A DNA stretch of 64,000 nt from Siphonodentalium dalli (taxonomy: Eukaryota > Mollusca > Scaphopoda > Gadilida > Siphonodentaliidae). The position numbers and the translations under genes are program-made. The stretch spans positions 4,450,976 to 4,514,975 of the forward strand of contig CP136069.1 of assembly GCA_032622095.1 (NCBI GenBank). The letters are read 5' to 3'. The stretch's first letter is position 1. Each line of letters starts with the position of its first letter. This document shows positions 6,101 through 60,290 of this stretch, in pieces. A model generated the notes under the pieces. That model ran no database searches. It had not been told where the DNA came from and saw only the letters and a list, made by a program, of their open reading frames with translations.

Positions 6101-9100
6101 ATTATGGTATTAAACGTAGCCAGATTAGAATGGCAGCCGGTCGGCTCAGTGCCTTTATGGAGCCTCACACAGACCCAAGCAGACGACAGTCATCAGTGCA
6201 TCATTCTCTCTGTCTGGGGCTCCATAAGGGTATTATGGTATTAAACATAACCAGATTAGAATGGCAGCCGGTCGGCTCAGTGCCTTTACAAATTGTAAAC
6301 AAAAAATAGAAGAATATATATATACTAGAAGGTGACCCGACTTCAAAAACCAAATTTCAAGTCGATTGTTCCACCCGTTTCCTAGATCTGGTCTGCGCAT
6401 GCGCGAAGCTGGTGTCGCACGGGCTCGGCGACCCGATAAAATTCGTATCCGGGGCAAGATACATTCACATACCAAATTTCAAGTCGATAGCTACACCCGT
6501 TTTCGAGATATATAGCCCAATGTCATTTGCGGATACCTCGGCCGGTGATGAGTTAACGCGACATCGGCCTCTTAAGAGTTAACGCGAACACGTCACGATA
6601 TGTTGATGGCGTAATATATTTTTTTACGCAATGATTTTCGATGAGCGAAGCATGAACTTGTGTTCTTCCCGATAATTAAGGTAGAAACTTTAAACGTACA
6701 CAGGCGTGTCATACATCATTGGAAAGGTGACACGCCACAGATTCTAACCGTGCAAATTATATGACTGGCAATTTATTATTCGCGCTATATCGAATCGATT
6801 TGTGAGCACCGAACTGAAATATATTAGCGCAAAACGGCGTAAAAACAGATTTGACCTCGGCACGTGAAAAGTTGACCTCGGATCTGAAAATCAATATGCC
6901 TATGTTCGTCTCCGGCCGAAAATACATCCAAATACCAAGTTTCATCGAAATTGGCTTAGTCGTTTTTGAGTCCATCGATTTCAAACACACACACAAACAC
7001 ATACACACACACACACACAGATCTTTCAAAATATATAATAGATAAAGGCTGGGAATTAATTTGTAAAAAATTATAATAAGATTCAAGGTGGTGATTAAAG
7101 GTTGTCAATGGGAGAAGTCGAACTCCTCCGAAACCACCCAAATTAATGACTATATGCCGACATTGAATTCATACATGTACGTATATAAATTTCACAAATG
7201 TATGTGTTATATTCACTGAGAGCTTTCCGATGAATGACAACAAGCCATACTTCCGACTAAAGCCTGAAAAATTACCCATAATTCTGCTGTGGTTAAGGAG
7301 TTGATTATTTAGAGCATTACTGTAGCTAACTGCTGACTGTTGGCAAATTTCATTTCTATGACATATACTAGTACTAGTATAAATTTTCTGGAGTCGCACA
7401 TTATTAAAACTCACAACGGAAATAAATCGAGACATTATTAAAACTCACCATGGACGTCAAGCCATACATTAGCAGTGGTGTTCCCAGCAATGTTTGCTGC
7501 CACACAAGCGTACGGTCCTTCATGTTCTGCCTGTATGTTACGAATCGTAAGTTTACCATGGCCGTCCTTTATAATGTGCCTGTTTGACTGCAGAAGATGA
7601 TTATTTCTTGTCCAAACCACAGATGGCAACGGGTTCCCGTTTAAAACAATGCATTCTAATTCAATGCTGTCACCCTCTACTACTTCATTAAAAGGTTCTA
7701 TATACGCCAGCATCGGTCGAACTGCAAGATAAATAAAATATCATAATATGTACGCCAGCATCGGTCGTACTGTAAGTTAAATAAAATATCATAATATGTA
7801 CGCCAGCATCGGTCGAACTGTAAGTTAAATAAAATATCATAATATGTACGCCAGCACCGGTCGTACTGTAAGATAAATAAAATATCATAATATGTACGCC
7901 AGCATCGGTCGTACTGCAAGATAAATAAAATATCATAATATGTACGCCAGCACCGGTCGTACTGTAAGATAAATAAAATATCATAATATGTACGCCAGCA
8001 TCGGTCGTACTGCAAGATAAATAAAATATCATAATATGTACGCCAGCACCGGTCGTACTGTAAGATAAATAAAATATCATAATATGTACGCCAGCATCGG
8101 TCGAACTGTAAGATAAATAAAATTGGTAAACGACAGTAAACTGTAGTTATATGCAATTTGAATTTTTCTAATATCTTTTTACTTATTCGTTTTTTTTTTT
8201 AAGAGGAGCGGCTTAGTTGCAATAACTTGTGTTTCAATCCTATTCAGACATTAGTGATGTGCGGCATATCAATTAATTGACAACGCCATGGTATGAAAAC
8301 CAACACCGTCTTACAACACCCACATTGATTTCTAAATGGTATATCGGCAGTTCAATAATATCACGACAATCAAACTAATGAAACATTCTCAAGGAAATGC
8401 TTTATCTACAGTAATGCCCTAAATAATCGACTCCTTAACCACAGCAGAATTATGGGTAACTTTTCAGGATTTAGTTGGAAATATTGCTTGTTGCCATATT
8501 TCCGTCTAAATCCTGAAAAGTTACCCATAATTCTGCGGTGGTTAAGGAGTCGATTATTTAGGGCATTACTGTACATTTGAATAAAATGTCTCTGTGACGT
8601 GATGGTTTATATAGAAGGGTATAAATAACTTACCCAGACCAGTAACTGTGAAATAAGCGGAGGTCTCTTTAGCTCCGAACTGGTTTTCTACGGTACACGT
8701 GTAGTATCCTTCATCATCCGGCTCGATATCTGAAAACAATCAATTCAAATCCCAAATCAGTTTCTCTTTTGAGTGAGCTAGTGTTCAAGTCTGTCCATCC
8801 ATCTGTCCATCAGTGTTTACAATCAGTTTGTTTATTGAGTGTGAATGTTACAGCCAGTGTTCACGTTAGACTCTGTCTGTCCATCTGTAAGTCCATCAGT
8901 GTTTACAATCAGTTTGTTTATTGAGTGTGAATGTTACAGTCAGTGTTCACGTTAGGCTCTGTCTGTCCATCTGTCAGTCAGTCCATCTGTGTTTACAATC
9001 AGTTTGTTTATTGAGTGTGAATGTTTGTCCGTCTTTTATCATGTTTAAGGGCTAATTATGTGATAAAGAAAATTATAAAATGCTGTAACTTACTTGAGAT

Positions 9101-12100: not shown

Positions 12101-15100
12101 TCTATTCCAAGATCTCCAGCCAAAAAATGTTTTGGGTGGGGGATAATTAATGAGGTTCATCGGACGTCAGATCAGTACTTCAAAATATTTCAAGAAGCCA
12201 AACTAAACTCGCTAGTAGTCGAACAGACAGGATGCACGGACGCCAGTACCTGCCTTGCTAGAATGGGACAAATTTAGCCATAATAGAATGTCGCTCGGTC
12301 AGCAAAGTGCATTTACAAATTGTCAACAAAAATGGAAGATATATACAGAAGCTGGGAATTTATTTGGAAAGATTGTAGAAGAATTGCGAAGGTGATATAC
12401 AAACCTTGAAATAGGGTGTCTGTCATTTTCAGAATGAGGTCCCCAGAGGATAATTTTTAGTGATGCTAGCCCGCTAAGCGGGGTAGCATCACTAAATTCA
12501 CCCTCTGGGGACCTGATCCTGCAAATGACAGACACACTATTTCAAGGCTTGGTGATATGTGACCCGCCATATCAAATCCAGTCATAAGTCGGGATTTTTT
12601 TACCCTGTGCCAATGCATTCTCTTATATATGCGAGTCGACCATAGGTCGCCTCGAATATATAAGAGAATGCATTGGCCTAACAATTTTTTATCATTTTTT
12701 TAAAATAAATGTTTCTTACAATTTTTTGGACATAAAATAAAAAACATCCATTACCCTGCAGGGAGCCCCACACATATATAGAAGCATATAGAAGAGTGTC
12801 GTCTGCTCATGTTTGTCTGGGGCTCTGTATGGGTGAAAGTATAAAATTGTTAAAGAATACAAGAAAAAATTATTAAAATTGTAAAAAATTGTTAGGCCAA
12901 TGCATTCTCTTATATATGCGAGGCAACCTATGGTCGGCTCGCATATATAAGAGAATGCATTGGCACAGGGTAAAAAAAATCCCGACTTACAACTGGATTT
13001 GATATGGTGGGTCACATATAAAGGCTGTCAGTTGCCAAACTTTTCCAAAAATGCTTGAATTTCTTTGATAATTGCCGATGCCATGGTGTTCGCTAAGTTG
13101 TCCATTAAAATATATAGGGTGTCACTTCGTAAACATGTCGATATTGCATGCATATATGTTGGTGTATATTTCACGAATTAACATGTTATTTCACAAGTTA
13201 TCGTTTATCTCAAGTCAACATCTGACAGTTATATGTAAAATTTTACAGAATTGTGCAGGCTATTTATAGGTTATGTCAGGCTATTTATAAGTTATGTCAG
13301 GCTATTTATAAGTTATGTCAGGCTATTTATAAGTTATGCCAGGCTATTTATAAGTTATATCAGGCTATTTACAAGTTATGCCAGGCTATTTACAAATTAT
13401 GTCAGAATATTTTTATAAGTTATAAGTTATGTCAGGTTATTTATAAGTTATGTCAGACTATTTATAAGTTATGCCAATCTAATTTTCTTCAATATTTCTG
13501 CTGAAAAAATCGTTTCAATGGGAATGAAAGAGAGTGCTTTAAAAAGTTATCTAAGTTGCCTCCAGACCACCTTGAGAGTTATCTATAAACTTACTTTGAT
13601 ATCACCTTTAGAGTTGTCTAACTTACCTCGAGATCACCTTTGAACCATTTCATCTTAGGAGCAGGTATTCCTGATGCTTTACAAAACAGTCTGGCCGTGT
13701 CTCCCGTAGCAACGAGAATCTTACTCTCAAACAAGTTGATTACTGGATGCTCTGTAAATCAAGAGAATAATATGTATACATGCACCATGCTAACTAACCC
13801 ACACCCCCTACCTGGGCTTACTGAATAACGTGCACCTTGCTAACTAACCCACACCCCCTCCATGGGCTTACTGAATAACATGTACATACGCACCGTGCTA
13901 ACTAACCCACACCCCCTCCATGGGCTTACTGAATAACATGTACATACGCACCTGTGTTGGTTGGTTTGAGTTTATATAACACCTGTATTGGTTGATTTGA
14001 GTTTATATAACACCTGTGTTGGTTGAATGGAGTTTATATAACACCTGTGTTGGTTGGTTGATTGGAGTTTATATAACACCTGTGTTGGTTGGTTGGAGTT
14101 TATATAACACCTGTGTTGGTTGGTTGGAGTTTATACAACACCTGTGTTGGTTGGTTGATTGGAGTATATATAACACCTGTGTTGGATGGCTGGAATTTAT
14201 AACACCTGTGTTTGTTGGTTGATTGGAGTTTATATAACACCTGTGTTGGTTGGTTGGAGTTTATATAACACATGTGTTGGTTGGTTGGAGTTTATATAAC
14301 ACCTGTGTTGGTTGGTTGATTTGAGTTTATATAACACCTGTGTTGGTTGGTTGGAGTTTATATAACAACTGTGTTGGTTGGTTGGAGTTTATATAACACC
14401 TGTGTTGGTTGGTTGATTGGAGTTTATATAACACCTGTGTTGGTTGGTTGGTTGGAGTTTATATAACACATGTGTTGGTTGGTTGATTGGAGTTTATATA
14501 ACACCTGTGTTGGTTGGCTGGAGTTTATATAACACCTGTGTTGGATGGCTGGAATTTATAACACCTGTGTTGGTTGGTTGGGGTTTATATAACACCTGTG
14601 TTGGATGGCTGTAGTTTATATAACACCTGTGTTGGATGGCTGGAGTTTATAACACCTGTGTTGGTTGGTTGATTCGAGTTTATATAACACCTGTGTTGGT
14701 TGGTTGGTTGGAGTTTATATAACACCTGTGTTGGTTGGTTGGAGTTTTAGGATCATTTCAGCCACTTGGTCGTATAATGACATTGCCAGGCTTTAATATC
14801 AAGCCTTGAAATAGTGTGTCTGTCATTTGCAGAATGAGGTCCCCAGAGTCATCGGGGTCCCCTCCATAAGAATGCCATGCGTCTTACTAACTGAGCCATC
14901 GGGGTCCCCTCCATAAGAATGTCATGCACCTTACTAACTGAGCCACCGGGGTCCCCTCCATAAGAATGTCATGCTCCTTACTAACTGAGCCATCTGGGTC
15001 CCCTCTATAAGAATGTAATGCGCATAACTAACTGAGCCACCGGGGTCCCCTCCATAAGAATGTAATGCGCCTTACTAACTGAGTCATCGGGGTCCCCTCC

Positions 15101-54100: not shown

Positions 54101-57100
54101 GCTCAAAAAGTGGGGTACTGGGCTTACTCATGAGGTGCTATTGGTGTTATTCCATGACAAAATATATTCCCTTGTCACCACATCTAATTTGTTAGTTTTA
54201 ACTAGCAATCTGATTGGCTACAACACCCCGTTTAATCACCATGTCCCCCTTGACAGCAGGGTATAAGAGAACATGTGCCAAACATCGGGGGTATATGAGC
54301 ACGTGAAAACATCGGGGGTATATGAATGACCCTTGAACTGGTAGTTTCCGCTAATCATGGCGTTGCTCTCGCATGCCGAATTTGATGTCACCTGCATGAC
54401 GCCGAATCCTTAGGTCGACTACTGAATCATTCTATGAAAACCACACTTAAATTAACCTTTTCAGTGCCAAGTCCGATTTTTTTATCAACCCATATTTCCT
54501 TGATCATTTTTCACATTTATTGATTATAATAAGGTGATACATTGATGGAAATTTAAGAGCTCTTAAAGCTCTTTCCATCAATGTATCACATTATTATAAT
54601 CAATAAATTTGAAAAATGATCAGGGAAATATGGGTTGATACAAAAATTGGACTTGGCACTGAAAGGGTTAAGGCATGGGGTGCATGGAGAGTTAATACCT
54701 GGATGTCTCTTTTTGAACCCCTCGGCTCCAACTCGGGGGTTCAAAATTGATATCCAGGTATTAAATCTCCATGTGCACCCGATGTTGCCGAAGATAACTA
54801 ATAATATCATACTTTTTTTATATTTTAGGAGCAAAAGAATACATACCACTAATAGGCCGATTGTTCAAATCAGTTCCATTAACTCCTGGTTTCCGTGTGA
54901 ACTCGGTTGAGAAATCCACTGAACTAAGGCCAGTAACTCTAACGGTGTGTGGTCCTTTACTTTTAACGAGAAGCCTCCAGAGACCTGGCGCGGGTTCTTT
55001 AACGTTGACGATCAAACCGTTCTCCAGTTCCAGAAGCTTCTTGATTTTATCATTACGATTTGAGTTCGGGTCGTGTCTGTTTCCTGAGAAAAGAAAATGG
55101 TCGAGGTTAGAGTCACTTAGAGTCTCTTTTCAAAAGACGATGATAATCGATGTATGTCTCTAGAAGTGTCCACTAAATTTCATTTCTACAATGATGCGGC
55201 ATTCCAATCATGACATAATAAACCATTTCCAAATATGGAGTGGATTCCTGGCATAGGAAATGTTTGTGAGAATCATGGTATTTAGAAAAAGTTATAAATA
55301 CAACAAGATGGGAAAGAATAATCAGTCAAAAATATCATTGACTGATAAAAACTCGAAGATGATGTGTCCTATATTGCGATGGATAAAATGAGTTATCACC
55401 TGTATTCAGTTTTCCAAGAATAGTTGAGTCTGACAATGCGTGGGAAACTTGTCAATGCGTCATTGACCTCAGATCTGTGAAGTGATCCGTTATGCCAATG
55501 AAATCACATGCGTGCTTCTCCACTCTCCAATGAAATGGATGGAATCCCATCAATTCAGTAACTGATTATGAATGAGATTTCCAGAGACACATAAATATTG
55601 TAAAATTTGACCAGCATCTGCCTGTTCGTCTGTCCATCGGGGTCACGACGTAAGCGCGAAAACTCTAACGTTAAACTGTAATCTGGTTATTACCTGCTGG
55701 ATCTACGAGATGAACTCTAGGGTTTCTTCCGCTGATGGATACTGTGAACTGTTTAAGTTTTGTGTCCACCGGAAGCAGGAATGTTTGTTCTCGATCGTCG
55801 TTAGAATCCACAGCCAACAGGTTCACCTTCTTAGCCTGCACAGCTTCTCTAACGAACTCTAAAACCTGTTTTCAGGGAGTAAAATATAAAGTATAGTATG
55901 TACATACATGTATACATCTACAAAAAAAACCTCACCAAACTGAACCCTCTATAAACCGAATCCCTCTCCATACTGAACAACTTGTCTGGTCCCGAATTCA
56001 CCCAAGTGCATTTTAATTAAAAATTACCTCTGTAAACTGGAAACTCTCTATTCAAAACATCAGACGGCTTTTCTATTCCATAAGTGAACGTATACATTAA
56101 TTTTTACCTCCAAAATCCAAACACGGAAATCGACACAAACCGAATGCATGTGCTGTAGATTTGACATACTTGATGCCGAGCTCTTATTGGCTTCGGTGAA
56201 AACTGGGGATCCTTTGTAAGTTTAAATCTCTGGTCTACATTAAACTCTGAGCGGTCGTGTTTGTGATGGCTCATTCATTGTGACAGGTTGGTTAACCCTT
56301 TACCCAACAAACCGGCCAAAACCGGCCAAATAAAGCTTCAACAGCCTAAAATATCTTCGGTCTGTCTCAATAGAACCATACAAATATGGATATCATTGGA
56401 ACCGGCTCATTGACCACATTGTGATAGTTACAGTTATGCCCTGTGCCAATGCATTCTCTTATATATGCGAGTCGACCATAGATCGCCTCGCATATATAAG
56501 AGAATGCACTGGCCTAAAAAAAAACTTTTTTTAACACTTTTTACCATTTTTTCTTACATTCTTTAACAATTTTATAATTTTTAATGTGTTAAGCCAATGC
56601 ATTCTCTTATATATGCGAGGCGACCTATGGTCGACTCGCATATATAAGAGAATGCATTGGCACAGGGCCCTTCTGTTGGGTAAAGGGTTAACCTTGTATC
56701 GGTGACAATACACTGCCTTCGTGTACTTTTAGCATGCTTCATTATGGTGTTTAGTTTGGACAGTGGTCGTAAAAATACGAGTCCATGCACCTCAGAGAGT
56801 TTATAGTGTCAGTGCTCTTTTCTCTGTGAAGTCACCATTGTTCACTGAATGTGTGAAATTATCTAATCCGACACCTGCTGTTATAATCCGGTTCAAAGCA
56901 TTTGCCGAACAAAGACCACTAATTAAAGTGTTGCGCAAATACAACAGTAGCAAACTACAATACATGTGCAACAATAATATTGTCTGCGACATTTTCGTAT
57001 CACTGTAAAATGTATCATTTCCTTGTATACATGTATTATGTCTTAATATACCATGTTTTTAATTCTTATTATAACATGTTTTATCTATATTATTTATATT

Positions 57101-59327
57101 TTATTCAATACTTTTTAAAATAAAGTTAAAGACCAACCAAAATCAGAAAATAAACTACCTTTTTATTTGTTTAAATGTGATTTATTTGTTGCCAAATAAG
57201 GTTATAAAATGTTTATTTCACATTAACATTTTCGTGAATATATTTAATGATATTTTGAAAGAAATAGCTATCTTATTGTTTACTTTTGTGATCAGTCACT
57301 TCACAAAGTAATCTCCCTTTGGTTCATGGCATCATCATGTGACCCACAGTCATGACAGAGGGAAGACGTTATGAATCTAGGTGTATATATTTTGGAATAA
57401 TGAGTATAAAATACGATTTAAAAAAAATCAAATTCACGTTCCACACAAAATGTCAAACCAACTTGCATTCATACTCCATGGAACGCAAGCAAATCAACAT
57501 CGCAGTGATCAACGTTTTGATTGAATGCGCAGTGATTGACGTTTTGACATTGTCATTTGATAAGTGAAGTTATCATCCGGAAACCAAAACTGCTAACAGA
57601 CAGACGGACAGACCAAACACATAATATGGCAGTTTTTCAAACGGGTGTATAAAATGTCAAAATTTAACAGACTGCAACCATGATAATTTTTCCTATATTT
57701 GCCTGCAACAAAAATAAATGGCCGATCAATGGTTCCATGATGGTGAATATTGTGAACTACATCAATTGGGCACATTGATTATGAAATGTATCATCAGCCA
57801 ATTTGGGAATATAGAGAGACTAAACTAAAAAAGAAAAAGAAAGTTCGGGAAATAAGTTTCTAGAAACTTAAACACTTGTTAATTTGATAATAAAGAAACT
57901 TTCCAGAGACAATGAGGCCTAAGCAGAATGCGGTCCCCAGAGGGTGAATTTAGTGATGCTAGCCCACTATGTGGGGTAGCGTCATAAAATTCACCCTATG
58001 GGGACCTCAGTCCGCAAATGTCATGCATGCACCTTTTTCTCAGGCTTGACCGTAATCGTAACTATGGATACGGCAAAATGATAACTGATAGCAAGAATGC
58101 AAAATCTAGTGATGTACAGTAATGCCCTAAATAACCGACTCCTTAACCACAGCAGAATTATGGGTAATTTTTCAGGATTTAGTCGGAAATATGGCTTGTT
58201 GCCATTCATCAGAAAGCTCTCAGTGAAAACTTTCCGATGAATGGCAACAAGCCATATTTCCGTCTAAATCCTGAAAAATTACCCATAATTATGCTGTGGT
58301 TTAAGGAGTTGATTATTTAGAGTATTACTGTAGTATCTTATTCGTAATTCTTATCAGTTCACTGATACAAGCCTTGAAATAGTGTGTCTTTCATTTGCAG
58401 AATGAGGTCCCCAGAGGGTGAAATTAGTGATGCTATCCTGAACAGCGGACAATTGTCACTAATTCACCCTCTGTTACCTCATTCTGCTTAGCGCTCAACT
58501 GCTATGGGAGACCTAGGATCAGATTGAAGTTTCCACGTTAAAGTTGGTGATGTTCGCCAATTAGTCACCTCGATTATGCATTTTATCTTCTGCAAATTAG
58601 GGGATATAGAAACTTCCCAGAAGGGAAAAAGTTACTAAAAACAATGTTAAATTGAGACTATAGATACTTCTCAGAAGATGAGGCCTAAGGTCCCCAGAGG
58701 GTGAATTTGGTGATGCTAGCCCATCGTGCAGTATAGCATCATTAAATTCATCCTCTGGGCACCTCGTTCTGCAAATGTCAGATAAACAAAATTCAGGCTT
58801 GTACTGGAAACCCAAGCTTCATGCAGAGTTCAGTCCCCTACGCAGGACTTACTGCTGCCCACACCAACACGTAATGTGAAGAAATGTCACATTTATTTAT
58901 TTAAGACTTTTGTAGGTTACAATTCATTCTGCATTATTCTGCGAAAATTGAACTTTCCATTTTCATTTGAAAATTGTCCAGATCAAGCCAGAATGAATTG
59001 TAACTGACAAAACACTTCAATAAAAATGTTAGATTTCATCAGATTTAATTAAGAAAATACACATGCCGACAGCGGTCAGACATAGCATAGCGAGGGGACT
59101 GAACTCTGTTTTGCAGCTTGCTAGAAACTACCTGTTTGACTTGATCTTCAGACATACCGTAGCGAGGGGACTGAACTCTGTTTTGTAGCTTGCTCGAAAC
59201 CTACCTGTTTGACTTGATCTTTTTTAAGCAGAAAGACTTGTCCTGAACTTGTTGAAGCAATTTCCTCAAAAGCTTGGAATCCTTGATGTGTTTGGTCGCC
59301 GCAGTCGCCCGTTAACACAAACACAAC
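2850..59327 (-). CDS. HMCN1: Hemicentin-like gene, 16 internal exons (vWA end, linker, Ig1-Ig8), partial at both ends
   Basis: The span covers 16 exons on the minus strand: 59205-59327, 55694-55865, 54847-55083, 49071-49255, 47367-47584, 42689-42810, 38602-38782, 37933-38024, 18172-18414, 13627-13751, 10929-11073, 9094-9276, 8634-8729, 7449-7721, 5225-5506 and 2850-3122. Phases chain without conflict (0,1,1,0,2,1,2,1,1,0,1,1,1,1,1,1 at exon ends) and give about 983 codons. The order of vWA end, linker and consecutive I-set Ig domains is the N-terminal plan of hemicentins, secreted basement-membrane proteins that tether epithelia. The vWA exon and the start of the next exon read very close to vertebrate hemicentin-1 as I remember it (TGDC and [12 protein letters not shown] motifs). 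The signal peptide, MIDAS half of vWA, later Ig repeats and EGF-like C-terminus lie outside the window. Introns total over 53 kb and are mostly repeats. Confidence 0.9.
3210..4215. mobile_element. Long inverted repeat of the 'GGTCCCCAGAGGG' palindromic family
   Basis: Two arms of roughly 400 bp (about 3300-3665 and 3745-4110) are reverse complements around a centre near 3705. Each arm contains smaller palindromes built on AATTTAGTGATGCTA and CCCTCTGGGGACCTCA. The same family occurs as shorter pieces at 9545-9655, 10562-10660, 12410-12545, 16915-17345, 18052-18165, 42860-43640, 45570-45975, 50160-50530, 51200-51515, 57725-58045 and 58365-58800. No transposase frame is present, so it is non-autonomous. 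The superfamily is not clear. Confidence 0.8.
4335..4570 (+). mobile_element. 75-bp hairpin module plus CCCTGCAGGG tail element
   Basis: The hairpin at 4335-4410 reads CCCTGTGCCAATGCATTC, continues to a short loop region with GTCGACCATAGGTCG, and folds back to GCATTGGCC. It is followed by a poly-T/A stretch and then by a segment with CCCTGCAGGGAGCCCC and GTTTGTCTGGGGCTCTGTAT. The same combination occurs at 12603-12835 and 60603-60840, and inverted at 46875-47115. Confidence 0.75.
4889..5103. mobile_element. Mariner-like palindromic MITE
   Basis: This near-perfect 215-bp palindrome has ends TACAGTAATGC and GCATTACTGTA. TA at the edges followed by CAGT is the usual form of Tc1/mariner termini with TA target duplication. 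Each arm carries AATTATGGGTAACTTTTCAGG and the centre is GAGAGCTTTCCGATG. There is no coding capacity. Confidence 0.85.
5225..5506 (-). CDS. HMCN1: Exon O: complete Ig domain 7
   Basis: This exon is 282 nt with phase 1 at both ends. The acceptor is TTTTCAG before TTCCCCC. The donor GTTGGT after TTCAAG is weaker than the other donors of this gene. The peptide begins [17 protein letters not shown], has cysteines in [13 protein letters not shown] and [12 protein letters not shown] and the tryptophan in FQWYKDG, a clear I-set domain. The 5' splice site is 120 bp from the end of a mariner-like palindrome (4889-5103). Confidence 0.9.
5712..6295 (+). repeat. 131-bp tandem repeat, about 4.4 copies
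   Basis: The landmark ATTAGAATGGCAGCCGGTCG recurs at 5731, 5862, 5993, 6124 and 6255, an exact 131-bp spacing. Each unit includes CTGTCTGGGGCTCCATAAGG, which resembles the tail of the hairpin elements. The last unit ends in sequence also seen at 12262-12340. The open frames across it are repeat-derived. Confidence 0.9.
6300..7050 (+). mobile_element. Retroposon-like tail ending in a CA microsatellite
   Basis: Repeated phrases such as CCAAATTTCAAGTCGAT at 6349 and 6473, and CCAAGTTTCATCGAAATTGG at 6933, precede a (CA)n run at 6986-7018. This pattern is typical of 3' tails of non-LTR elements or SINEs in invertebrate genomes. No reverse transcriptase frame is present. The assignment is by general appearance only. 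Confidence 0.4.
7215..7324. mobile_element. Half of a mariner-like palindrome
   Basis: Only one arm is present, from the central GAGAGCTTTCCGATG to GCATTACTGTA. It lies in the intron between exons N and O. Confidence 0.8.
7449..7721 (-). CDS. HMCN1: Exon N: complete Ig domain 6
   Basis: This exon is 273 nt with phase 1 at both ends. The acceptor is TCTTGCAG before TTCGACC; the donor is CCATG followed by GTGAGT. The peptide starts [18 protein letters not shown], with cysteines in [10 protein letters not shown] and [12 protein letters not shown] and a tryptophan in SVVWTRN. The first 17 bases and the acceptor are repeated about nine times directly upstream as a 48-bp minisatellite (7702-8117). 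Entering from an upstream copy would meet TGA in the exon frame, so the exon-proximal acceptor is the productive one. Confidence 0.9.
7702..8117 (-). repeat. 48-bp minisatellite made from the exon N 3' splice site, about 9 copies
   Basis: Each unit contains, on the minus strand, TTATCTTRCAG followed by TWCGACCGRTGCTGGCG, that is the acceptor and the first codons of exon N, then intron sequence. The unit length is a multiple of three, so two frames are open across the array, but the frame of exon N itself contains TGA in every unit. The copy nearest the exon (acceptor just above 7721) is the productive site. Confidence 0.92.
8407..8573. mobile_element. Mariner-like palindromic MITE, internally shortened
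   Basis: The ends are TACAGTAATGCCCTAAATAA and the matching inverted end at 8573; the central stem is deleted relative to the 215-bp form. Confidence 0.85.
8634..8729 (-). CDS. HMCN1: Exon M: end of Ig domain 5
   Basis: This short exon of 96 nt has phase 1 at both ends. The acceptor is TTTTCAG before ATATCG; the donor is GGTCTGG followed by GTAAGT. The peptide [19 protein letters not shown] then [11 protein letters not shown] supplies the second Ig cysteine and last strand. No start or stop codon of its own is expected. The upstream intron (8730-9093) holds about three copies of a roughly 100-bp tandem repeat. Confidence 0.88.
8770..9030. repeat. Tandem repeat of about 100 bp, 2-3 copies
   Basis: The phrase GTTTACAATCAGTTTGTTTA recurs at 8815, 8901 and 8991, with GTCTGTCCATCTG between. 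It fills most of the intron between exons L and M. Confidence 0.8.
9094..9276 (-). CDS. HMCN1: Exon L: first two thirds of Ig domain 5
   Basis: This exon is 183 nt with phase 1 at both ends. The acceptor is GTTTTAG before CCCCTCC; the donor is TCTCAA followed by GTAAGT. The peptide begins [15 protein letters not shown], has the first Ig cysteine in ATIECQGEG and the core tryptophan in KVHWQRHD, and ends GDLHIS. The closing cysteine is in exon M. Good splice signals and in-frame joining to both neighbours support it. Confidence 0.9.
9799..10015. mobile_element. Mariner-like palindromic MITE
   Basis: This is a full-length palindrome of about 217 bp with TACAGTAATGC-type ends. A fragment of the GGTCCCCAGAGGG family lies just before it (9545-9655). 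Confidence 0.85.
10020..10690. other. Intron sequence with an old dispersed repeat
   Basis: 10505-10568 is an inverted match to 44390-44465 (shared words around TCTACAAC, GCGGAATTTAC and TCCAGTAAATTA). 10562-10660 belongs to the GGTCCCCAGAGGG palindromic family. Nothing else is recognised. Confidence 0.55.
10694..10910. mobile_element. Mariner-like palindromic MITE beside exon K
   Basis: This full-length palindrome ends 18 bp from the end of exon K. Its arm is the sequence fused to the inverted exon copy at 48486-48589. Confidence 0.88.
10929..11073 (-). CDS. HMCN1: Exon K: second half of Ig domain 4
   Basis: This exon is 145 nt, phase 0 in and phase 1 out. The acceptor is TTTCAG before CTCCAC; the donor is AGGAT followed by GTGAGT. 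The peptide [16 protein letters not shown] then [12 protein letters not shown] closes Ig4. It lies between two mariner-like palindromes (10694-10910 and 11153-11280). An inverted, slightly diverged copy of this exon occurs on the plus strand at 48347-48485 in a different intron of the same gene, again with element arms on both sides; the copy lacks the last six exon bases and the donor. Confidence 0.9.
11153..11280. mobile_element. Rearranged mariner-like MITE upstream of exon K
   Basis: It contains the element end (ATGCCCTAAATAATCGACTC), a short inverted end, and then a displaced arm GATTTAGTCGGAAATATGGC. The outer end is also present, inverted, at the exon copy near 48240-48267. Confidence 0.8.
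11290..12340. other. Intron with a degenerate dispersed repeat shared with 17400-17995
   Basis: 11700-12060 aligns loosely with 17640-17995: shared landmarks are TTGACATCCAT, TATGTGGG, TTATGTTGAC and CACCCACTTACCT in the same order. I see no intact coding frame and treat it as an old transposon fragment of unknown type. Confidence 0.5.
12603..12970. mobile_element. Pair of inverted hairpin modules with CCCTGCAGGG tail between
   Basis: Hairpins at 12603-12678 and 12895-12970 face each other. The flanks AAATCCAGTCATAAGTCGGG (12574) and CCCGACTTACAACTGGATTT (12982) are inverted matches, so the whole 12555-13015 block is one element with terminal inverted repeats containing GACCCGCCATATC. Confidence 0.8.
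13253..13490. repeat. 21-bp tandem repeat, about 11 copies
   Basis: Units of AGGCTATTTATAAGTTATGTC (21 bp) repeat with small changes. The frame is open because the period is a multiple of three, but this is intronic and not a gene. Confidence 0.9.
13627..13751 (-). CDS. HMCN1: Exon J: first half of Ig domain 4
   Basis: This exon is 125 nt, phase 1 in and phase 0 out. The acceptor is TTTACAG before AGCATCC; the donor is CTCGAG followed by GTAAGT. The peptide [18 protein letters not shown] then [17 protein letters not shown] carries the first Ig cysteine and the core tryptophan. The exon is enclosed by minisatellites: a 21-bp array on its 3' side (13250-13490) and 60-bp and 30-bp class arrays on its 5' side (13765-14745). 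Confidence 0.88.
13765..14745. repeat. Two adjoining minisatellites upstream of exon J
   Basis: 13765-13960 has about four units containing GCTAACTAACCCACACCCCC. 13960-14745 has units of about 30-37 bp built on ACACCTGTGTTGGTTGGTTG and AGTTTATATA, in mixed unit lengths. Neither contains exon J sequence. Confidence 0.88.
14850..16870 (-). repeat. 47-bp tandem array with tRNA-like box A in each unit, about 43 copies
   Basis: On the minus strand each unit reads GGGACCCCGATGGCTCAG, then TTAGTAAGGCGC and ATTACATTCTTATGGA. The part TGGCTCAGTTAGTAAGGC resembles the D-arm and internal box A of a tRNA or a tRNA-derived SINE. No box B (GTTCGAATCC type) or complete cloverleaf is seen. Variants (CTCC, TTCACC, GCGCC before TTACTAACTG on the plus strand) recur in blocks, which suggests multi-unit duplication. 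Confidence 0.85.
16915..18165. repeat. Intron block duplicated together with the exon I donor
   Basis: 17220-17360 and 18052-18180 share the same palindromic fragment (GAATTTGGTGACACTAGTCC) followed by AAAATATTTTTAGG and CTTACCAAGGTATTTAAG, which is the reverse complement of the exon I end and donor. A third, shorter copy of the junction is at 18017-18055. Exon-derived parts are about 42 nt at 17344-17385 and 24 nt at 18031-18055. The middle part, 17400-17995, is the degenerate repeat shared with 11700-12060. Confidence 0.85.
18172..18414 (-). CDS. HMCN1: Exon I: complete Ig domain 3
   Basis: This exon is 243 nt with phase 1 at both ends, a complete symmetrical Ig module. The acceptor is TTCACAG before AACGACC; the donor is CCTTG followed by GTAAGC. 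Cysteines are in [13 protein letters not shown] and [12 protein letters not shown], and the core tryptophan is in YLWLHN. The donor end is present twice more downstream in the intron (about 18031-18055 and 17341-17385), each with the same GTAAGC-type site, embedded in a duplicated intron block. A TTAA-flanked palindromic MITE sits 26 bp upstream of the acceptor (18441-18680). Confidence 0.9.
18441..18680. mobile_element. TTAA-flanked palindromic MITE (CCCTTTGAGTGCCAG ends) with hairpin module
   Basis: The ends are TTAACCCTTTGAGTGCCAG and its reverse complement. TTAA at both edges followed by CCC is the form of piggyBac-type termini. The inner part includes the 75-bp hairpin (18485-18560) and GATCGGCC motifs. 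Confidence 0.8.
18700..20220. other. Intron sequence, mostly unrecognised
   Basis: 19558-19640 is a damaged TTAACCCTTTC element end with a broken hairpin module, followed by A-rich repeats of AAAGAATGTAAGAAAAAATG to 19760. No exon is seen. The 77-codon open frame at 19984-20217 has no recognisable domain and no splice or conservation evidence. Confidence 0.5.
20224..20622. mobile_element. TTAA-flanked MITE, 399 bp (CCCTTTACCCAACA ends), two hairpins
   Basis: The element begins TTAACCCTTTACCCAACA and ends with the inverted form. It contains CCGGCCAAAACCGGCC, a GAACCGGCTCC segment and two facing 75-bp hairpins (20370-20445 and 20524-20598). Two further full copies are at 56292-56691 and, inverted, at 61811-62210; a fragment is at 38246-38346. 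Confidence 0.9.
21096..37948 (-). repeat. 16.8 kb tandem array derived from the exon H 5' splice site
   Basis: There are two main monomers: 45 bp (CACATCATATAGAGTATTTA, then TTCCACTAACCATGGACTTT) and 59 bp, which has an added TTAGGAAGGCTCTT. On the minus strand the 59-bp unit reads AGAGCCTTCCTAAAAGTCC then ATGGTTAGTGG, that is the last 24 bases of exon H plus its donor, followed by intron. Rarer forms are 46 bp (GGACCTTTAA), about 39 bp (TTCCCTGGACC, confined to 21.4-22.9 kb) and 31 bp (37745-37925). There are roughly 300 or more units, all in one orientation. Long open frames on both strands at 21134-23212 and 32878-34309 arise where 45-bp units run uninterrupted. Confidence 0.95.
37933..38024 (-). 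CDS. HMCN1: Exon H: second half of Ig domain 2
   Basis: This exon is 92 nt, phase 2 in and phase 1 out. The acceptor is TTTCAG before GGGTGTC; the donor is CCATG followed by GTTAGT. The peptide is [16 protein letters not shown] then RAFLKVHG, containing the Y-x-C cysteine that closes Ig2. The last 24 bases of this exon and its donor site are the recognisable source of the 59-bp unit of the 16.8 kb array that starts directly downstream. Reading past the donor hits TAG within two codons, so donor copies further into the array would not give a productive transcript. Confidence 0.85.
38025..38601. other. Intron between exons G and H with dispersed repeats
   Basis: 38060-38265 is a same-orientation match to 61078-61275 (shared ATCTGATCACTCTGAGCTTT and CCCCCGAAGCCAAAGAAATA). 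38246-38346 is a fragment of the CCCTTTACCCAACA element. The rest is unique. Confidence 0.75.
38602..38782 (-). CDS. HMCN1: Exon G: first half of Ig domain 2
   Basis: This exon is 181 nt, phase 1 in and phase 2 out. The acceptor is ATTTTCAG before AACCCCC; the donor is GTAAG followed by GTAAGC. The peptide begins [18 protein letters not shown], with the first Ig cysteine in FLTCQAQ and the core tryptophan in VTWLF. The first 45 or so bases, together with the acceptor and upstream intron, are the source of the tandem array at 38786-40205. The reading frame is also open upstream of the acceptor for nearly 900 bases through that array, so an exon extended on its 5' side cannot be excluded from sequence alone. 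Confidence 0.86.
38786..40205 (-). repeat. 45-bp array made from the exon G 3' splice site and first codons
   Basis: 38830-39770 holds about 21 units whose minus-strand translation is [15 protein letters not shown], matching the start of exon G ([15 protein letters not shown]). 39770-40205 holds about five larger partial copies that also contain the acceptor and upstream intron (GTAAACATGGATATATGTTG). Single-base indels in a few units shift the frame, so all three minus-strand frames are open for long distances (351, 483 and 514 codons). One frame runs from 39653 straight into exon G in its correct frame. Confidence 0.93.
40375..40870. mobile_element. TTAA-flanked MITE (CCCTTTCAGTGCCAG ends), 496 bp
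   Basis: The ends TTAACCCTTTCAGTGCCAGG and the inverted CCTGGCACTGAAAGGGTTAA match over about 20 bp. It contains one hairpin module (40751-40825). A truncated hairpin follows at 40932-40961, directly fused to a copy of exon G acceptor-array sequence (GAGGACTCAGATACATTGG). Confidence 0.85.
41077..41849. mobile_element. hAT-like non-autonomous element with 8-bp target duplication
   Basis: The element 41085-41841 starts TAGAGATGGGTGGTTT and ends in CCGATCCATCACTA, imperfect inverted ends of the TAGNGATGG form. It is flanked on both sides by GTGGGCGT (41077-41084 and 41842-41849), an exact 8-bp direct repeat as made by hAT transposases. Subterminal TTCGGTTTCGG repeats occur at both ends. There is no transposase frame. 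Confidence 0.85.
41850..42688. other. Intron sequence upstream of exon F, no recognised feature
   Basis: Apart from a low-complexity GTGGCCACTTT stretch (42325-42370) and an imperfect hairpin at 42583-42668 I see nothing annotatable. Confidence 0.5.
42689..42810 (-). CDS. HMCN1: Exon F: second half of Ig domain 1
   Basis: This exon is 122 nt, phase 2 in and phase 1 out. The acceptor is TTGTAG before ATTTTCC; the donor is ATCACAG followed by GTAATA. The peptide [11 protein letters not shown] then [12 protein letters not shown] carries the second Ig cysteine in the usual Y-x-C setting followed by the N-x-A-G turn. It completes the Ig fold opened in exon E; together they give an I-set domain of normal size. 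The adjacent region at 42580-42670 is an imperfect hairpin in the intron. Confidence 0.86.
42860..43897. mobile_element. GGTCCCCAGAGGG-family palindromes followed by a mariner-like MITE
   Basis: 42860-43640 has at least three palindromic blocks of the GGTCCCCAGAGGG family. 43678-43897 is a full-length mariner-like palindrome with a TACAGTAATGC left end and a right end changed to TTACTGCA. Confidence 0.8.
43900..45565. other. Intron sequence without recognised genes
   Basis: 44390-44465 is an inverted match to 10505-10568. The 80-codon frame at 44882-45124 is hydrophobic at its end but has no splice signals in the hemicentin frame and no recognisable domain. Nothing else stands out. Confidence 0.5.
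45570..45975. mobile_element. GGTCCCCAGAGGG-family palindromic element
   Basis: Two palindromes flank a spacer with TTTCTATATCCCCTTAATTT. The outer ends GTGTCTGTCATTTGCAGAAT and the inverted form at 45940-45965 define the element. Confidence 0.8.
46190..47290. repeat. 46-bp tandem repeat and retroposon-like tails, with an inserted hairpin element
   Basis: 46330-46620 has about six units containing ATACTAAATTTCATTGAG and TCCTCATAGTGGT at 46-bp spacing. The flanking sequence repeats CAGATAAACAAAGAT and ACATCCATACCAAATTTCAT. An inverted hairpin-plus-CCCTGCAGGG element (46875-47125) interrupts it. The end GACGGACGAGG with CCCCTTTCTCTTCGAG looks like an invertebrate non-LTR or SINE tail. Confidence 0.65.
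47367..47584 (-). CDS. HMCN1: Exon E: end of linker and first half of Ig domain 1
   Basis: This exon is 218 nt, phase 0 in and phase 2 out. The acceptor is TTTCAG before GTTGAGG; the donor is CACAA followed by GTATGT. The peptide starts [15 protein letters not shown] and then enters an Ig domain with the first conserved cysteine in AKLSCHVSS and the core tryptophan in VIWYKD. The second cysteine is in the next exon. A 22-bp tandem array (47680-47990) lies about 100 bp upstream in the intron but does not contain exon sequence, unlike the junction-derived arrays elsewhere in this gene. Confidence 0.88.
47680..47990. repeat. 22-bp tandem repeat, about 14 copies
   Basis: Units of CCCTATTTACATCCCCTCCC with GA or AA between recur at about 22 bp. 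C/T-rich on this strand; no exon-derived sequence. Confidence 0.9.
48118..48589 (+). mobile_element. Composite mariner-like MITE unit enclosing a captured exon
   Basis: The segment begins with element sequence (GTAATGCCCTAAGTAATCG at 48121), contains a shortened palindrome to 48267, then the inverted copy of intron plus exon K, and ends with a single element arm finishing GCATTACTGTA. The join between the left element and the captured intron (CTGTAGGTGGGG) is the reverse complement of the sequence at 11143-11160, so the flanking element was copied together with the exon. The outer ends look like the normal element termini, as expected if two neighbouring elements moved as one unit. Inverted segmental duplication by another route is the alternative. 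Confidence 0.75.
48347..48485 (+). pseudogene. Inverted partial copy of exon K (Ig4 second half) inside a linker-region intron
   Basis: The plus strand carries 139 of the 145 bases of exon K, without indels and with only a few substitutions, including two changes at the glutamate-alanine step that make it proline-alanine. The acceptor TTTCAG and about 80 bases of upstream intron are also copied. The copy stops six bases before the exon end and runs directly into the arm of a mariner-like palindrome, so its donor site is missing. It lies antisense to the hemicentin transcript and cannot be spliced in as an Ig half-domain from that strand. The frame is still open and keeps the [10 protein letters not shown] motif, pointing to a fairly recent event. 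Confidence 0.9.
48691..49063. mobile_element. Two adjacent mariner-like palindromes beside exon D
   Basis: 48691-48849 is a shortened copy and 48859-49063 a nearly complete one. The second ends eight bases before the exon D boundary, so the intron's 5' end changes from GTGTGTAT directly into the element terminus. Confidence 0.85.
49071..49255 (-). CDS. HMCN1: Exon D: hemicentin linker, last part before the Ig repeats
   Basis: This exon is 185 nt, phase 1 in and phase 0 out. The acceptor is TTTCAG before GAATTC. The best donor is GTGTGT directly after CAGG; a shift by one base (GGTGTG) would break the frame to the next exon. The peptide contains [16 protein letters not shown] and [13 protein letters not shown], which parallel the hemicentin segment with the FVPPNEAFFLKV pattern. 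A mariner-like palindromic element ends within about 8 bases of the donor (element 48859-49063), so the intron's 5' splice site abuts transposon sequence. Confidence 0.85.
49600..50048. mobile_element. Long perfect-looking hairpin followed by a MITE with TTATTACACGCTT ends
   Basis: 49639-49798 is a 160-bp hairpin with GGATAGAAC on both sides of a GAGGCGCTTGCGCCTC centre. 49797-50048 begins TTATTACACGCTTCGCATCC and ends GGAACAAGCGTGTAATAA, inverted ends of a short element. Its interior (CATGTGTGATGAT, GCGTATGGAACGTACG) is the unexpanded relative of the duplicated region at 1-2526. Confidence 0.8.
50160..50530. mobile_element. GGTCCCCAGAGGG-family element
   Basis: A palindrome at 50172-50262 is followed by the spacer and a second, truncated arm to 50530. 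Same family as 3210-4215. Confidence 0.8.
50640..50815. repeat. 18-bp perfect tandem repeat, about 9 copies
   Basis: GTAAAGGGATTGTATTAT is repeated head to tail without visible change. The high identity points to very recent expansion. The open frames (GLYYVK and HNTIPL) are incidental. Confidence 0.95.
50860..52370. repeat. Dispersed and tandem 'GATCGGATGAGGGATGTGG' repeats
   Basis: Blocks with ATCCAAGATGGCC, TAGAGGTCACCC and GATCGGATGAGGGATGTGG recur at 50880-51190 and 51770-52290. They resemble 3' tails of invertebrate retroposons. A GGTCCCCAGAGGG-family element (51200-51515) interrupts them. Confidence 0.7.
52520..54000. repeat. 162-bp class tandem repeat ending in a retroposon-like tail
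   Basis: The phrase AAGTTATCATCCGGAAACCA recurs, with copies of GACAGGATTC at 53163, 53309, 53471 and 53633 (162 bp between the last three). Units contain GGGCCATAACTCTCGCAAAA. Two unit types end in GACGGACGGACAGACC (53040) or GGACGGCGGGCAGACGG (53973). The open frames of 146-151 codons reflect a period divisible by three. Confidence 0.85.
54452..54790. mobile_element. TTAA-flanked palindromic MITE plus a second palindrome, 3' of exon C
   Basis: 54452-54671 begins TTAACCTTTTCAGTGCCAAG and ends in the inverted form; its arms pair through GATCATTTTTCACATTTATT to the centre AAGAGCTCTTAA. 54672-54785 is another hairpin around CCCCTCGGCTCC with outer GCATGGAGAGTTAATACC. Confidence 0.85.
54847..55083 (-). 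CDS. HMCN1: Exon C: hemicentin linker region
   Basis: This exon is 237 nt with phase 1 at both ends, so it is a symmetrical cassette. The acceptor is TTCTCAG before GAAACAG and the donor is ATTAGTG followed by GTATGT. The peptide includes [14 protein letters not shown] and [17 protein letters not shown], matching the conserved hemicentin pattern of valine-valine-asparagine-valine-lysine-glutamate-proline followed by a glycine-tryptophan and an RITGLS-like strand. It is a secreted, extracellular part of the protein with no known catalytic function. Two overlapping palindromic elements lie immediately 3' of it (54452-54790 on the plus strand). Confidence 0.9.
55115..55610. repeat. Intron segment duplicated at 63150-63655
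   Basis: About 490 bp align in the same orientation with moderate divergence; shared words include GTGTCCACTAAATTTCATTT-like and GATGCGGCATTCC, and the end CCATCAATTCAGTAACTGAT. One copy lies in the intron after exon B, the other upstream of the vWA exon. Confidence 0.85.
55694..55865 (-). CDS. HMCN1: Exon B: end of vWA helix and start of hemicentin linker
   Basis: This exon is 172 nt, phase 0 in and phase 1 out. The acceptor is AAACAG before GTTTTAGAG; the donor is CAGCAG followed by GTAATA. The peptide begins [17 protein letters not shown], which corresponds to the hemicentin segment directly after the vWA domain, and continues into a beta-rich stretch (QFTVSISG, then RVHLVDPAG) typical of the linker that recalls a presenter-type sandwich fold. 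It joins in frame to exon A and exon C. No membrane segment or cysteine pair is visible. The flanking intron on the 3' side is short and contains a dispersed duplicate of a segment also present at 63.15-63.65 kb. Confidence 0.88.
55900..56290. other. Intron 5' of exon B, nothing recognised
   Basis: Unique-looking A/T-rich sequence with no palindrome or splice-supported frame that I can defend. Confidence 0.5.
56292..56691. mobile_element. TTAA-flanked MITE, 400 bp, second full copy
   Basis: Same structure and orientation as 20224-20622, with hairpins at 56439-56514 and 56593-56667. The two copies differ at few positions, so the family moved or was copied recently. Confidence 0.9.
56700..57720. 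other. Intron sequence without recognised features
   Basis: 57560-57650 carries a retroposon-like tail (AAGTTATCATCCGGAAACCA, then GACAGACGGACAGACC) related to 52520-54000. The remainder is A/T-rich and shows no exon. Confidence 0.55.
57725..58800. mobile_element. GGTCCCCAGAGGG-family elements around a mariner-like MITE
   Basis: 57725-58045 and 58365-58800 are palindromic family members. 58115-58333 is a full-length mariner-like palindrome between them with TACAGTAATGCCCTAAATAA at its left end. Confidence 0.8.
59077..59220 (-). repeat. 72-bp tandem duplication of the vWA exon's 5' splice site
   Basis: 59077-59148 repeats 59149-59220 with few differences. Each copy includes GATCAAGTCAAACAGGTAG on the minus strand, the last 15 or so exon bases and the donor. 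The exon-proximal copy is the true donor (after 59205); the distal copy is a decoy with GTAGTT. Confidence 0.9.
59205..59327 (-). CDS. HMCN1: Exon A: C-terminal part of the von Willebrand A domain
   Basis: This exon has 41 codons, phase 0 at both ends. The acceptor is TTGCAG before GTTGTG and the donor is CAG followed by GTAGGT. The peptide starts [11 protein letters not shown] and contains [12 protein letters not shown], the last beta strand and helix of the hemicentin vWA domain. The DxSxS metal site would be encoded by earlier exons beyond the window. Both edges of this exon are duplicated in the adjacent introns: the acceptor side in a roughly 900-bp array (59330-60250) and the donor side in a 72-bp tandem duplication (59077-59220). 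The identification rests on strong motif similarity to vertebrate hemicentin-1. Confidence 0.92.
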
Positions 59328-59334
59328 CTGCAAT

Positions 59335-60290
59335 GCAGAAAATTGGTGATATATTATATAGGTAACAATAGTTGCATGTATACACAAACACAACCAGTAA
59401 TGACAAAAAATACACTCAAATGTTAACACAAACACAACCTGTTATGACAAAAAACACACTCAAATGTTAACACAAACACAACCTGTTATGACAGAAAATA
59501 AAGTCACCTGTTAACACAAACATGACCTGTTATGACAGAAAACACAGTTGCCTGTTAACACAAAGAAAACCTGTTATGACAGAAAATACAGTTGCCTGTT
59601 ATCACAAACACACCGTTATGACAGAAAACACAGTTGCCTGTTAACACAAACACACTGTTATGACAGAAAACACAGTTGCCTGTTAACACAAACACACTGT
59701 TATGGCAGAAAACACAGTTGCCTGTTAACACAAACACACTGTTATGGCAGAAAACACAGTTGCCTGTTAACACAACATGTTATAACAGAAAACACAGTTG
59801 CCTGTTAACACAAACACACTGTTATGACAGAAAACACAGTTGCCTGTTGACACAAACACACTGTTATGGCAGAAAACACTGTTGCCTGTTAACACAACCT
59901 GTTATAACAGAAAACACAGTTGCCTGTTAACACAAACACACTGTTATGGCAGAAAACACAGTTGCCTGTTAACACAAACACACTGTTATGGCAGAAAACA
60001 CAGTTGCCTGTTAACACAAACACACTGTTATGGCAGAAAACACAGTTGCCTGTTAACACAAACACACTGTTATGGCAGAAAACACAGTTGCCTGTTAACA
60101 CAAACACACTGTTATGGCAGAAAACACAGTTGCCTGTTAACACAACCTGTTATAACAGAAAACACAGTTGCCTGTTAACACAAACACAACCTGTTATGAC
60201 AGAAAGCACAGGCATATGCTAACACAAACACAACCTGTTATGACAGAAGATAGGTAATATATAATTTAGGTAACAATGGTCACCTGTATA
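59335..60290 (-). repeat. 42-45-bp array made from the vWA exon's 3' splice site, about 20 copies
   Basis: On the minus strand units read TGTCATAACAGGTTGTGT, then TTGTGTTAACAGGCAACTG, matching the acceptor and start of exon A (GCAGGTTGTGTTTGTGTTAA). In frame the units encode VFVLTGNCVFCHNS, an echo of VVFVLTGDC. The intron that follows the acceptor copy nearest the exon (ATATATTATATAGGTAAC at about 59350) recurs at the far end (60255-60275), marking both limits of the amplification. Confidence 0.92.

Follow-up and report, generated by a model that had tools for sequence, protein, structure and literature searches.

Tandem arrays that take in the edge of an exon have been described in the amphioxus Adh3 gene and in the amphioxus globin genes BflGb6 and BflGb9, where minisatellite-like tandem duplications of exon-intron boundaries were named "mirages" (PMC3087553, drawn on here, like the other papers cited, in the part of its text that was available). 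According to that text, splice signals are repeated, splicing is apparently undisturbed, boundary units are excluded from homogenisation, and the origin of the arrays is unclear. In intron 7 of human factor VII, which holds 37-bp repeats, only the most upstream donor is used, and a mutation at position +5 matters there (PMC6627357). Tandem duplication has also been linked with intron gain (PMC2891723, PMC2812944). Here we describe arrays at the exon edges of a hemicentin gene of the scaphopod Siphonodentalium dalli, the 5' part of which lies on the minus strand of a 64,000-bp stretch of DNA (G000:C9:4450976-4514975, hereafter the window) in an assembly of nine contigs and 2.23 Gb. The hemicentin arrays are most likely unusually dense mirages, a kind of structure already known from amphioxus. 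An earlier interpretation of the window made from its letters (the sequence-only reading) knew of no named mechanism for such arrays; the structure, at least, has a name.

The stop-to-stop frames of the window match the Pfam families I-set, Ig_3 and GBD_Hemicentin. Sixteen exons were set by eye at consensus splice sites, and when joined they give 983 open codons with consistent phases. Pfam domains run across the exon joints tested, namely GBD_Hemicentin across exons A2 and B (profile positions 2-100 of 100, E 4.5e-24) and I-set across exons G and H (3-90 of 90, E 1.7e-18), J and K, and L and M, and exon N encodes a complete immunoglobulin (Ig) domain (Ig_3, E 5.3e-17). The layout is that of a hemicentin: the end of a vWA domain, a GBD-like domain and then a long run of Ig exons. 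Exon A is taken to be the end of the vWA domain, an assignment made without a profile. An Ig profile located 26 further Ig exons or exon parts downstream of the window, and their strand, order and profile matches suggest that they form one gene with it. A protein search with exon B returned one unnamed 81-residue fragment, a PDB search returned seven chains (titin, sidekick-2, LRIG1), none of them called hemicentin, and nothing matched in Rfam at gathering cut-offs. The single open frame and the domains crossing the tested joints indicate sound exons, and the mis-calling of exons, which the sequence-only reading had named as one thing that would refute it, is not borne out. An artefact of the assembly or of the gene model is extremely improbable: arrays as long as those described below are hard to assemble, but the open frame, the matching phases and the domain profiles across joints argue otherwise, as do array units that differ by substitutions and by length classes.

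Copies of exon edges were sought by taking 40 bp centred on each edge and looking, within a set distance, for a similar copy that reaches at least 8 bp to each side of the edge. Among the 82 edges tested in the window and in the next 200 kb of the gene, 20 have at least one copy within 1.5 kb and 15 of these have two or more, donors and acceptors alike. The largest array of the window lies at the donor of exon H and comprises 337 units, the exon's own counted. Its spacings are mostly 45 bp (143), 59 bp (125) or 46 bp (47), with six of 31 bp and 15 others, and the 59-bp unit joins 24 bp of exon to 35 bp of intron. The last 21 bp of the exon are matched with at most two mismatches in 126 of the 337 units; the donor string, ATG followed by GTTAGTGG, is held exactly by 256, and the donor GT is almost invariant in the main unit classes. 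Position +5 of the donor is the most variable base in the three main classes (11-24% changed). G>A at +5 is the commonest variant of the unit, found in 63 of the 337 units and scattered, with 127 changes along the array where shuffling gives 118 +/- 6; outside the donor the unit is changed by less than 1% on average.

The acceptor of exon N carries an array with a 48-bp unit that consists of 25 bp of intron end and 23 bp of exon, present as eight copies plus the exon itself, with AG kept in all nine. The exon's own copy and the most distal copy have TTC where six of the seven inner copies have TAC, and a two-unit alternation runs across five inner units. This base pattern and the alternation show growth by blocks and homogenisation, and the difference between outer TTC and inner TAC is of the boundary-exclusion type reported for the globin mirages (PMC3087553). 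Measured against amphioxus mirages, a unit made of intron end plus exon part is found at exons N and H and not in the 45-bp layer at exon G; AG or GT is kept in many units at both H and N; and homogenised inner units with excluded boundary units are seen in the exon N array only.

Upstream of the exon A acceptor there are at least 19 imperfect copies of the acceptor with about 20 bp of exon, and 15 of 18 spacings measure 42-45 bp. The exon G acceptor has four copies within 1.5 kb, upstream of the real site by 991, 1145, 1300 and 1395 bp, all in a 155-bp layer that lies beyond a 45-bp layer. Two downstream copies of the 3' end and donor of exon I, at +138 and +827 bp, are joined to a dispersed repeat. 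No copies were found at any of the four edges of exons A2 and B. A doubtful case lies at the exon N donor, where the exonic half is a poor match. Every array listed by the sequence-only reading is thus present: about 20 copies of 42-45 bp at the acceptor of the vWA exon, 45- and 59-bp units at the exon H donor, nine copies of 48 bp at the exon N acceptor, and small donor duplications at the vWA exon (72 bp x 2) and exon I. Its 45-bp array at the exon G acceptor exists as well, but its unit contains exon sequence only, the acceptor copies lying in the 155-bp layer; the proposed clustering of unit lengths at 42-48 bp fails, units gene-wide spanning 31-155 bp. The array at the exon J donor is an additional case. 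Tandem Repeats Finder (TRF) arrays, once merged, number 29 and cover 28,194 of the 64,000 bp; the calls depend on the strand, and the arrays at the exon J and exon N donors were called on the plus strand and not in the minus-strand run.

Whether this exceeds chance was judged against non-coding positions put through the same copy test, with each array counted once. Copies within 1.5 kb exist for 8 of the 32 edges of the window (the doubtful exon N donor included), compared with 3.6-3.7 expected under two score cuts (background 11%, P 0.02); for copies within 150 bp the count is 7 of 32, compared with 1.4-1.5 expected (background 4.5%, P 0.0004). At the strictest score the counts are 6 of 32 versus 3.2 within 1.5 kb and 4 of 32 versus 1.3 within 150 bp (P 0.04-0.12), and over all 15 settings P ranges from 0.0004 to 0.12. 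TRF arrays lie across an edge in 5 of 29 cases. Random placement of the units predicts 1.45 (P 0.012), or 0.82 with a 60-bp ceiling on unit length (P 0.0009); omission of the doubtful exon N donor lowers the count to 4 of 29, with P 0.05 (uncapped) or 0.007 (capped).

Because the window had been picked after the fact, the next 200 kb were tested. The Ig profile gave 27 pieces there, of which one duplicate was dropped, and 50 of the 52 edges of the remaining 26 passed the splice-score cut. Copies within 1.5 kb were found for 12 of these 50 edges (3.3-4.2 expected, P 7e-4 to 7e-5), and within 150 bp for eight (about 2 expected, P 5e-4 to 1.5e-3). The downstream arrays include 62 bp x 64.6 and 40 bp x 16 at donors and 42 bp x 14.8 and 116 bp x 5.2 at acceptors; for the acceptor at 4377969 the copy test used a placement one unit off, and the array-start profile used 4377969. 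TRF arrays enter 11 of the 82 edges, by 13 to 78 bp as first placed, a count that leaves out the exon J and exon N donor arrays because it comes from the minus-strand run; with the acceptor corrected, 11 array boundaries lie at -80 to -10 bp.

The position of the exon-nearest array boundary was then profiled over the 82 edges. Its density is 2.58 per kb at -40 to +100 bp versus 0.69 per kb at 100-800 bp (24 versus 19 array-start events, ratio 3.7, P 2e-5). Some 40% of the sequence outside arrays is similar to other parts of the 264 kb, and with dispersed repeats skipped the ratio is 3.3 (P 3e-4). Within the near zone the density is 3.5 per kb at -40 to -10 bp, 1.2 at -10 to 25, 3.1 at 25 to 60 and 2.6 at 60 to 100, so that there is no peak at the splice site itself. 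This bears on a process targeted to splice junctions, for example DNA damage coupled to transcription or splicing, that would duplicate exactly at GT and AG sites. The number of copied edges and the involvement of donors and acceptors alike fit such a process, but the dip in boundary density at the junction does not, and none of 77 edges of other genes (see below) is copied where one or two would be expected, which counts only weakly against it; we consider it decidedly improbable. The sequence-only reading had ascribed the arrays to a shared process acting at splice junctions, not chance slippage. Independent arrays holding real edges, their recurrence downstream and the 3.3-3.7-fold denser starts near exons favour the shared element of that claim, whereas the aim at the junction itself is not supported, the density peak being missing. 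The interpretation is partly supported, then, as a shared tendency near exon edges in the hemicentin gene, as opposed to a process shown to aim at junctions.

We consider that the arrays are probably mirages in the following sense: minisatellites that arose from tandem duplications spanning an exon edge or lying in the roughly 100 bp beside it, and that are tolerated because the exon-proximal copy splices. Judging from the breakpoints, slippage or template switching between a short direct repeat in the exon end and its counterpart in the intron would have produced a duplicated piece of 30-155 bp with a splice site. Read by eye, the seed flanks have 4 bp in common at H and J (AAAG in both) and at I (TTCT), and 1 bp at the exon A donor; the 59-bp unit of H runs from an exonic AAAG to an intronic AAAG, and its 45-bp unit begins at a second exonic AAAG. 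Random breakpoints share at least 4 bp in 1.8-2.4% of cases. The flanks fit the published model of slipped mispairing between short repeats that are not contiguous (PMC3389668). Unit patterns show that copy number then rose on the intron side by further slippage, block duplication and homogenisation. Selection may tolerate such arrays, as the copy fused to the exon body would keep the correct splice site, and growth inside the exon body would be removed. The near-exon excess could come from a higher birth rate in the zone, or else arrays there may be lost more slowly, because a deletion that removes an adjacent array would also damage the exon. Read-through at the H donor encounters a stop one codon later, and use of an upstream N acceptor meets an in-frame stop seven codons before the exon, so that at H and N only the exon-proximal copy can be productive. 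By likeness to factor VII intron 7, splicing of the exon-proximal copy alone is predicted.

Several observations weigh against this reading. A cruder background in which copies are not collapsed shows no excess in the window (8 of 32 edges versus 21%, P 0.37); that estimate was replaced because it treats nearby dispersed repeats, and each copy of a duplication not called by TRF, as events of their own. Without collapsing, copies occur as often at 80-200 bp inside the introns (8-10 of 32 within 150 bp and 13-16 of 32 within 1.5 kb) as at the window's edges (7 and 8 of 32). The limits of -40 to +100 bp were chosen after the profile had been seen, and the P values of the near-exon excess are flattering for that reason. 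The microhomology cases number four, were read after the fact and include one with 1 bp. The stop argument fails at the exon A acceptor, the exon G acceptor and the exon I donor because read-in stays open there for 38, at least 60 and 50 codons, respectively. Finally, outside the gene, none of the 77 Sushi-exon edges tested has a copy scoring at least 18 within 440 bp, and one scores 17. Some of this would be expected of a pure by-product, in which the introns are so rich in arrays (45% of the window's stretch and 24-25% of two neighbouring stretches) that some touch an edge by chance, without any bias of birth or survival; the settings that reach P 0.12, the uncollapsed version and the copies no rarer inside the introns all point that way. 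The excess, however, is repeated in sequence that had not been seen before, and array starts fall off 3.3-3.7-fold beyond 100 bp from exons even with dispersed repeats skipped. The by-product explanation is therefore rated as unlikely, and mirages tolerated beside their exons remain our preferred reading.

The Sushi comparison used 40 Sushi-domain exons hand-picked from 149 matches as full-length matches lying in frames of exon size, some of them close paralogues; 77 of their 80 edges were tested, three weak donors being dropped. Hemicentin edges with a copy within 500 bp number 18 of 82 versus 0 of 77 (Fisher P 3e-6). The Sushi loci have 0.17 arrays per kb, covering 2.2% of bases, and hemicentin exons with 500-bp flanks have 0.87 per kb, covering 22.9%. 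The Sushi introns are so poor in arrays that 0.8-1.9 matches would be expected by chance, and the absence of copies therefore says little on relative near-exon bias; it does show that the density of copied edges is special to the hemicentin region. In the stretch below 4339000, arrays make up 23.7% of bases; it has no Ig-profile exon, and the 3' end of the gene may lie in it. An effect of the chromosome end was considered and rejected: the region is 4.4 Mb from a contig end, and random 1-kb pieces taken close to contig ends (arrays in 5 of 10, making up 20.6% of bases, six arrays in 10 kb) do not differ clearly from interior pieces (4 of 10, 10.0%, four arrays in 10 kb). Sushi matches elsewhere are single exons, and at G000:C3:206394530-206402929 dozens lie in one open frame of 2818 codons.

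The arrays might also be functional, the repeated splice sites regulating the gene either as U1-binding donors that act against premature polyadenylation or as alternative acceptors that change the protein. Retention of the exact donor string by most H units, with a nearly invariant GT, could be taken in this sense, as could the 45-bp array of exon G, which is open throughout in two frames and, except for one stop, in the third. Donor retention in the H units is, however, no sign of selection, because +5 is the most variable base and the whole unit is homogenised; the exon G array does not maintain a frame, as its protein pattern shifts frame inside one open frame; and the extra copies at H and N introduce stops. 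We regard a function of this kind as very improbable. A broader proposal joins two ideas, that roughly 150 bp around exon edges are a true birth zone of minisatellites driven by transcription, splicing or chromatin, and that the huge donor arrays (with 337 units at exon H and some 65 at a later one) are U1 landing strips shielding long introns from premature polyadenylation; this, too, seems quite improbable.

Other repeats and moved exon pieces were noted in the window. An inverted copy at 48236-48485 (plus strand), 96% identical over 250 bp, holds the exon K acceptor region and exon K without its last 6 bp; it is flanked by a palindromic dispersed repeat, and the exon fragment has apparently moved within the gene. 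A second captured piece, 180 bp from the exon B region including the acceptor, 95% identical, lies on another contig at G000:C4:9361848-9362033. This locus was considered for a paralogue comparison and rejected, since in the 20 kb around it there are otherwise only short, weak matches. Positions 1-1222 and 1296-2529 of the window are direct duplicates, each about 1.2 kb long and 98.9% identical to the other, and the duplication itself contains a TATGGAAC minisatellite. A palindromic repeat resembling a miniature inverted-repeat transposable element occurs at 43660-43900 and elsewhere, its commonest 20-mers being present 10-14 times in the window, and two further dispersed families have 20-mers present 24 and 12 times. 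Searches of public collections with exact strings from three dispersed repeats gave no match, two of the repeats being sought among viral contigs only and the third, in two lengths, among viral and genome contigs.

Table. Exons and exon-edge arrays of the hemicentin gene, in window coordinates
Feature	Position	Strand	Basis
Exon A, presumed end of hemicentin vWA domain	59205..59327	-	open frame; consensus splice sites and phase at either end
Exon A2 (55694-55865), exon B (54847-55083) and the intron that separates them; galactose-binding-like domain of hemicentin	54847..55865	-	GBD_Hemicentin profile
Exon G, first part of Ig domain	38602..38782	-	I-set across G+H
Exon H, last part of Ig domain	37933..38024	-	I-set across G+H
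Exon I	18172..18414	-	
Exon J	13627-13751	-	
Exon N, complete Ig domain	7449..7721	-	Pfam Ig_3
Array upstream of exon A acceptor	59370..60248	-	TRF; 42 bp from exon
72-bp x 2 duplication across exon A donor	59076..59221	-	TRF; 17 bp exonic
45-bp x 20.9 array like first 45 bp of exon G, exonic only	38834..39771	-	TRF
155-bp array with exon G acceptor copies	39781..40207	-	TRF
16.9-kb array with exon H donor copies	21094..37945	-	TRF, unit counts, unit profiles
32-bp x 2.9 degenerate array across exon J donor	13545..13641	-	TRF (plus-strand run)
48-bp x 8.9 array at exon N acceptor	7699..8123	-	TRF
34-bp x 2.2 duplication at exon N donor, doubtful	7398..7471	-	TRF (plus-strand run)

In the literature, of which most subscription papers were not covered, no report was found of a near-exon excess or of hemicentin cases, and among titles on hemicentin with tandem repeats and introns none concerned exon-edge arrays. 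One gene with 20 copied edges, 15 of them copied several times, and an approximately threefold excess of array starts makes the birth or survival of minisatellites beside exons a testable question. The same arrays make it testable how the spliceosome chooses among hundreds of identical donors or nine near-identical acceptors.

In the available accounts of tandem duplication as a source of introns, the extra splice sites come from duplicated coding sequence that carries a proto-splice site or from boundary repeats (PMC2891723, PMC2812944), whereas no new intron is seen in hemicentin, where the arrays lie in introns beside Ig exons. Factor VII intron 7, as far as its account was available, is one donor array in which splicing was tested; in hemicentin acceptors are repeated too, and splice use is predicted. 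The closest likeness is to the amphioxus mirages, in which, as in the hemicentin arrays, each unit holds an intron end with the adjoining part of the exon, either 5' or 3' boundaries are involved, splice signals are repeated and inner units are homogenised. In the part of that work available, the globin mirages have six and three units in BflGb6 haplotypes and one duplicate in BflGb9, and affect one edge per gene, whereas the hemicentin arrays reach 337 units and involve 20 of 82 edges, 15 of which have at least two copies.

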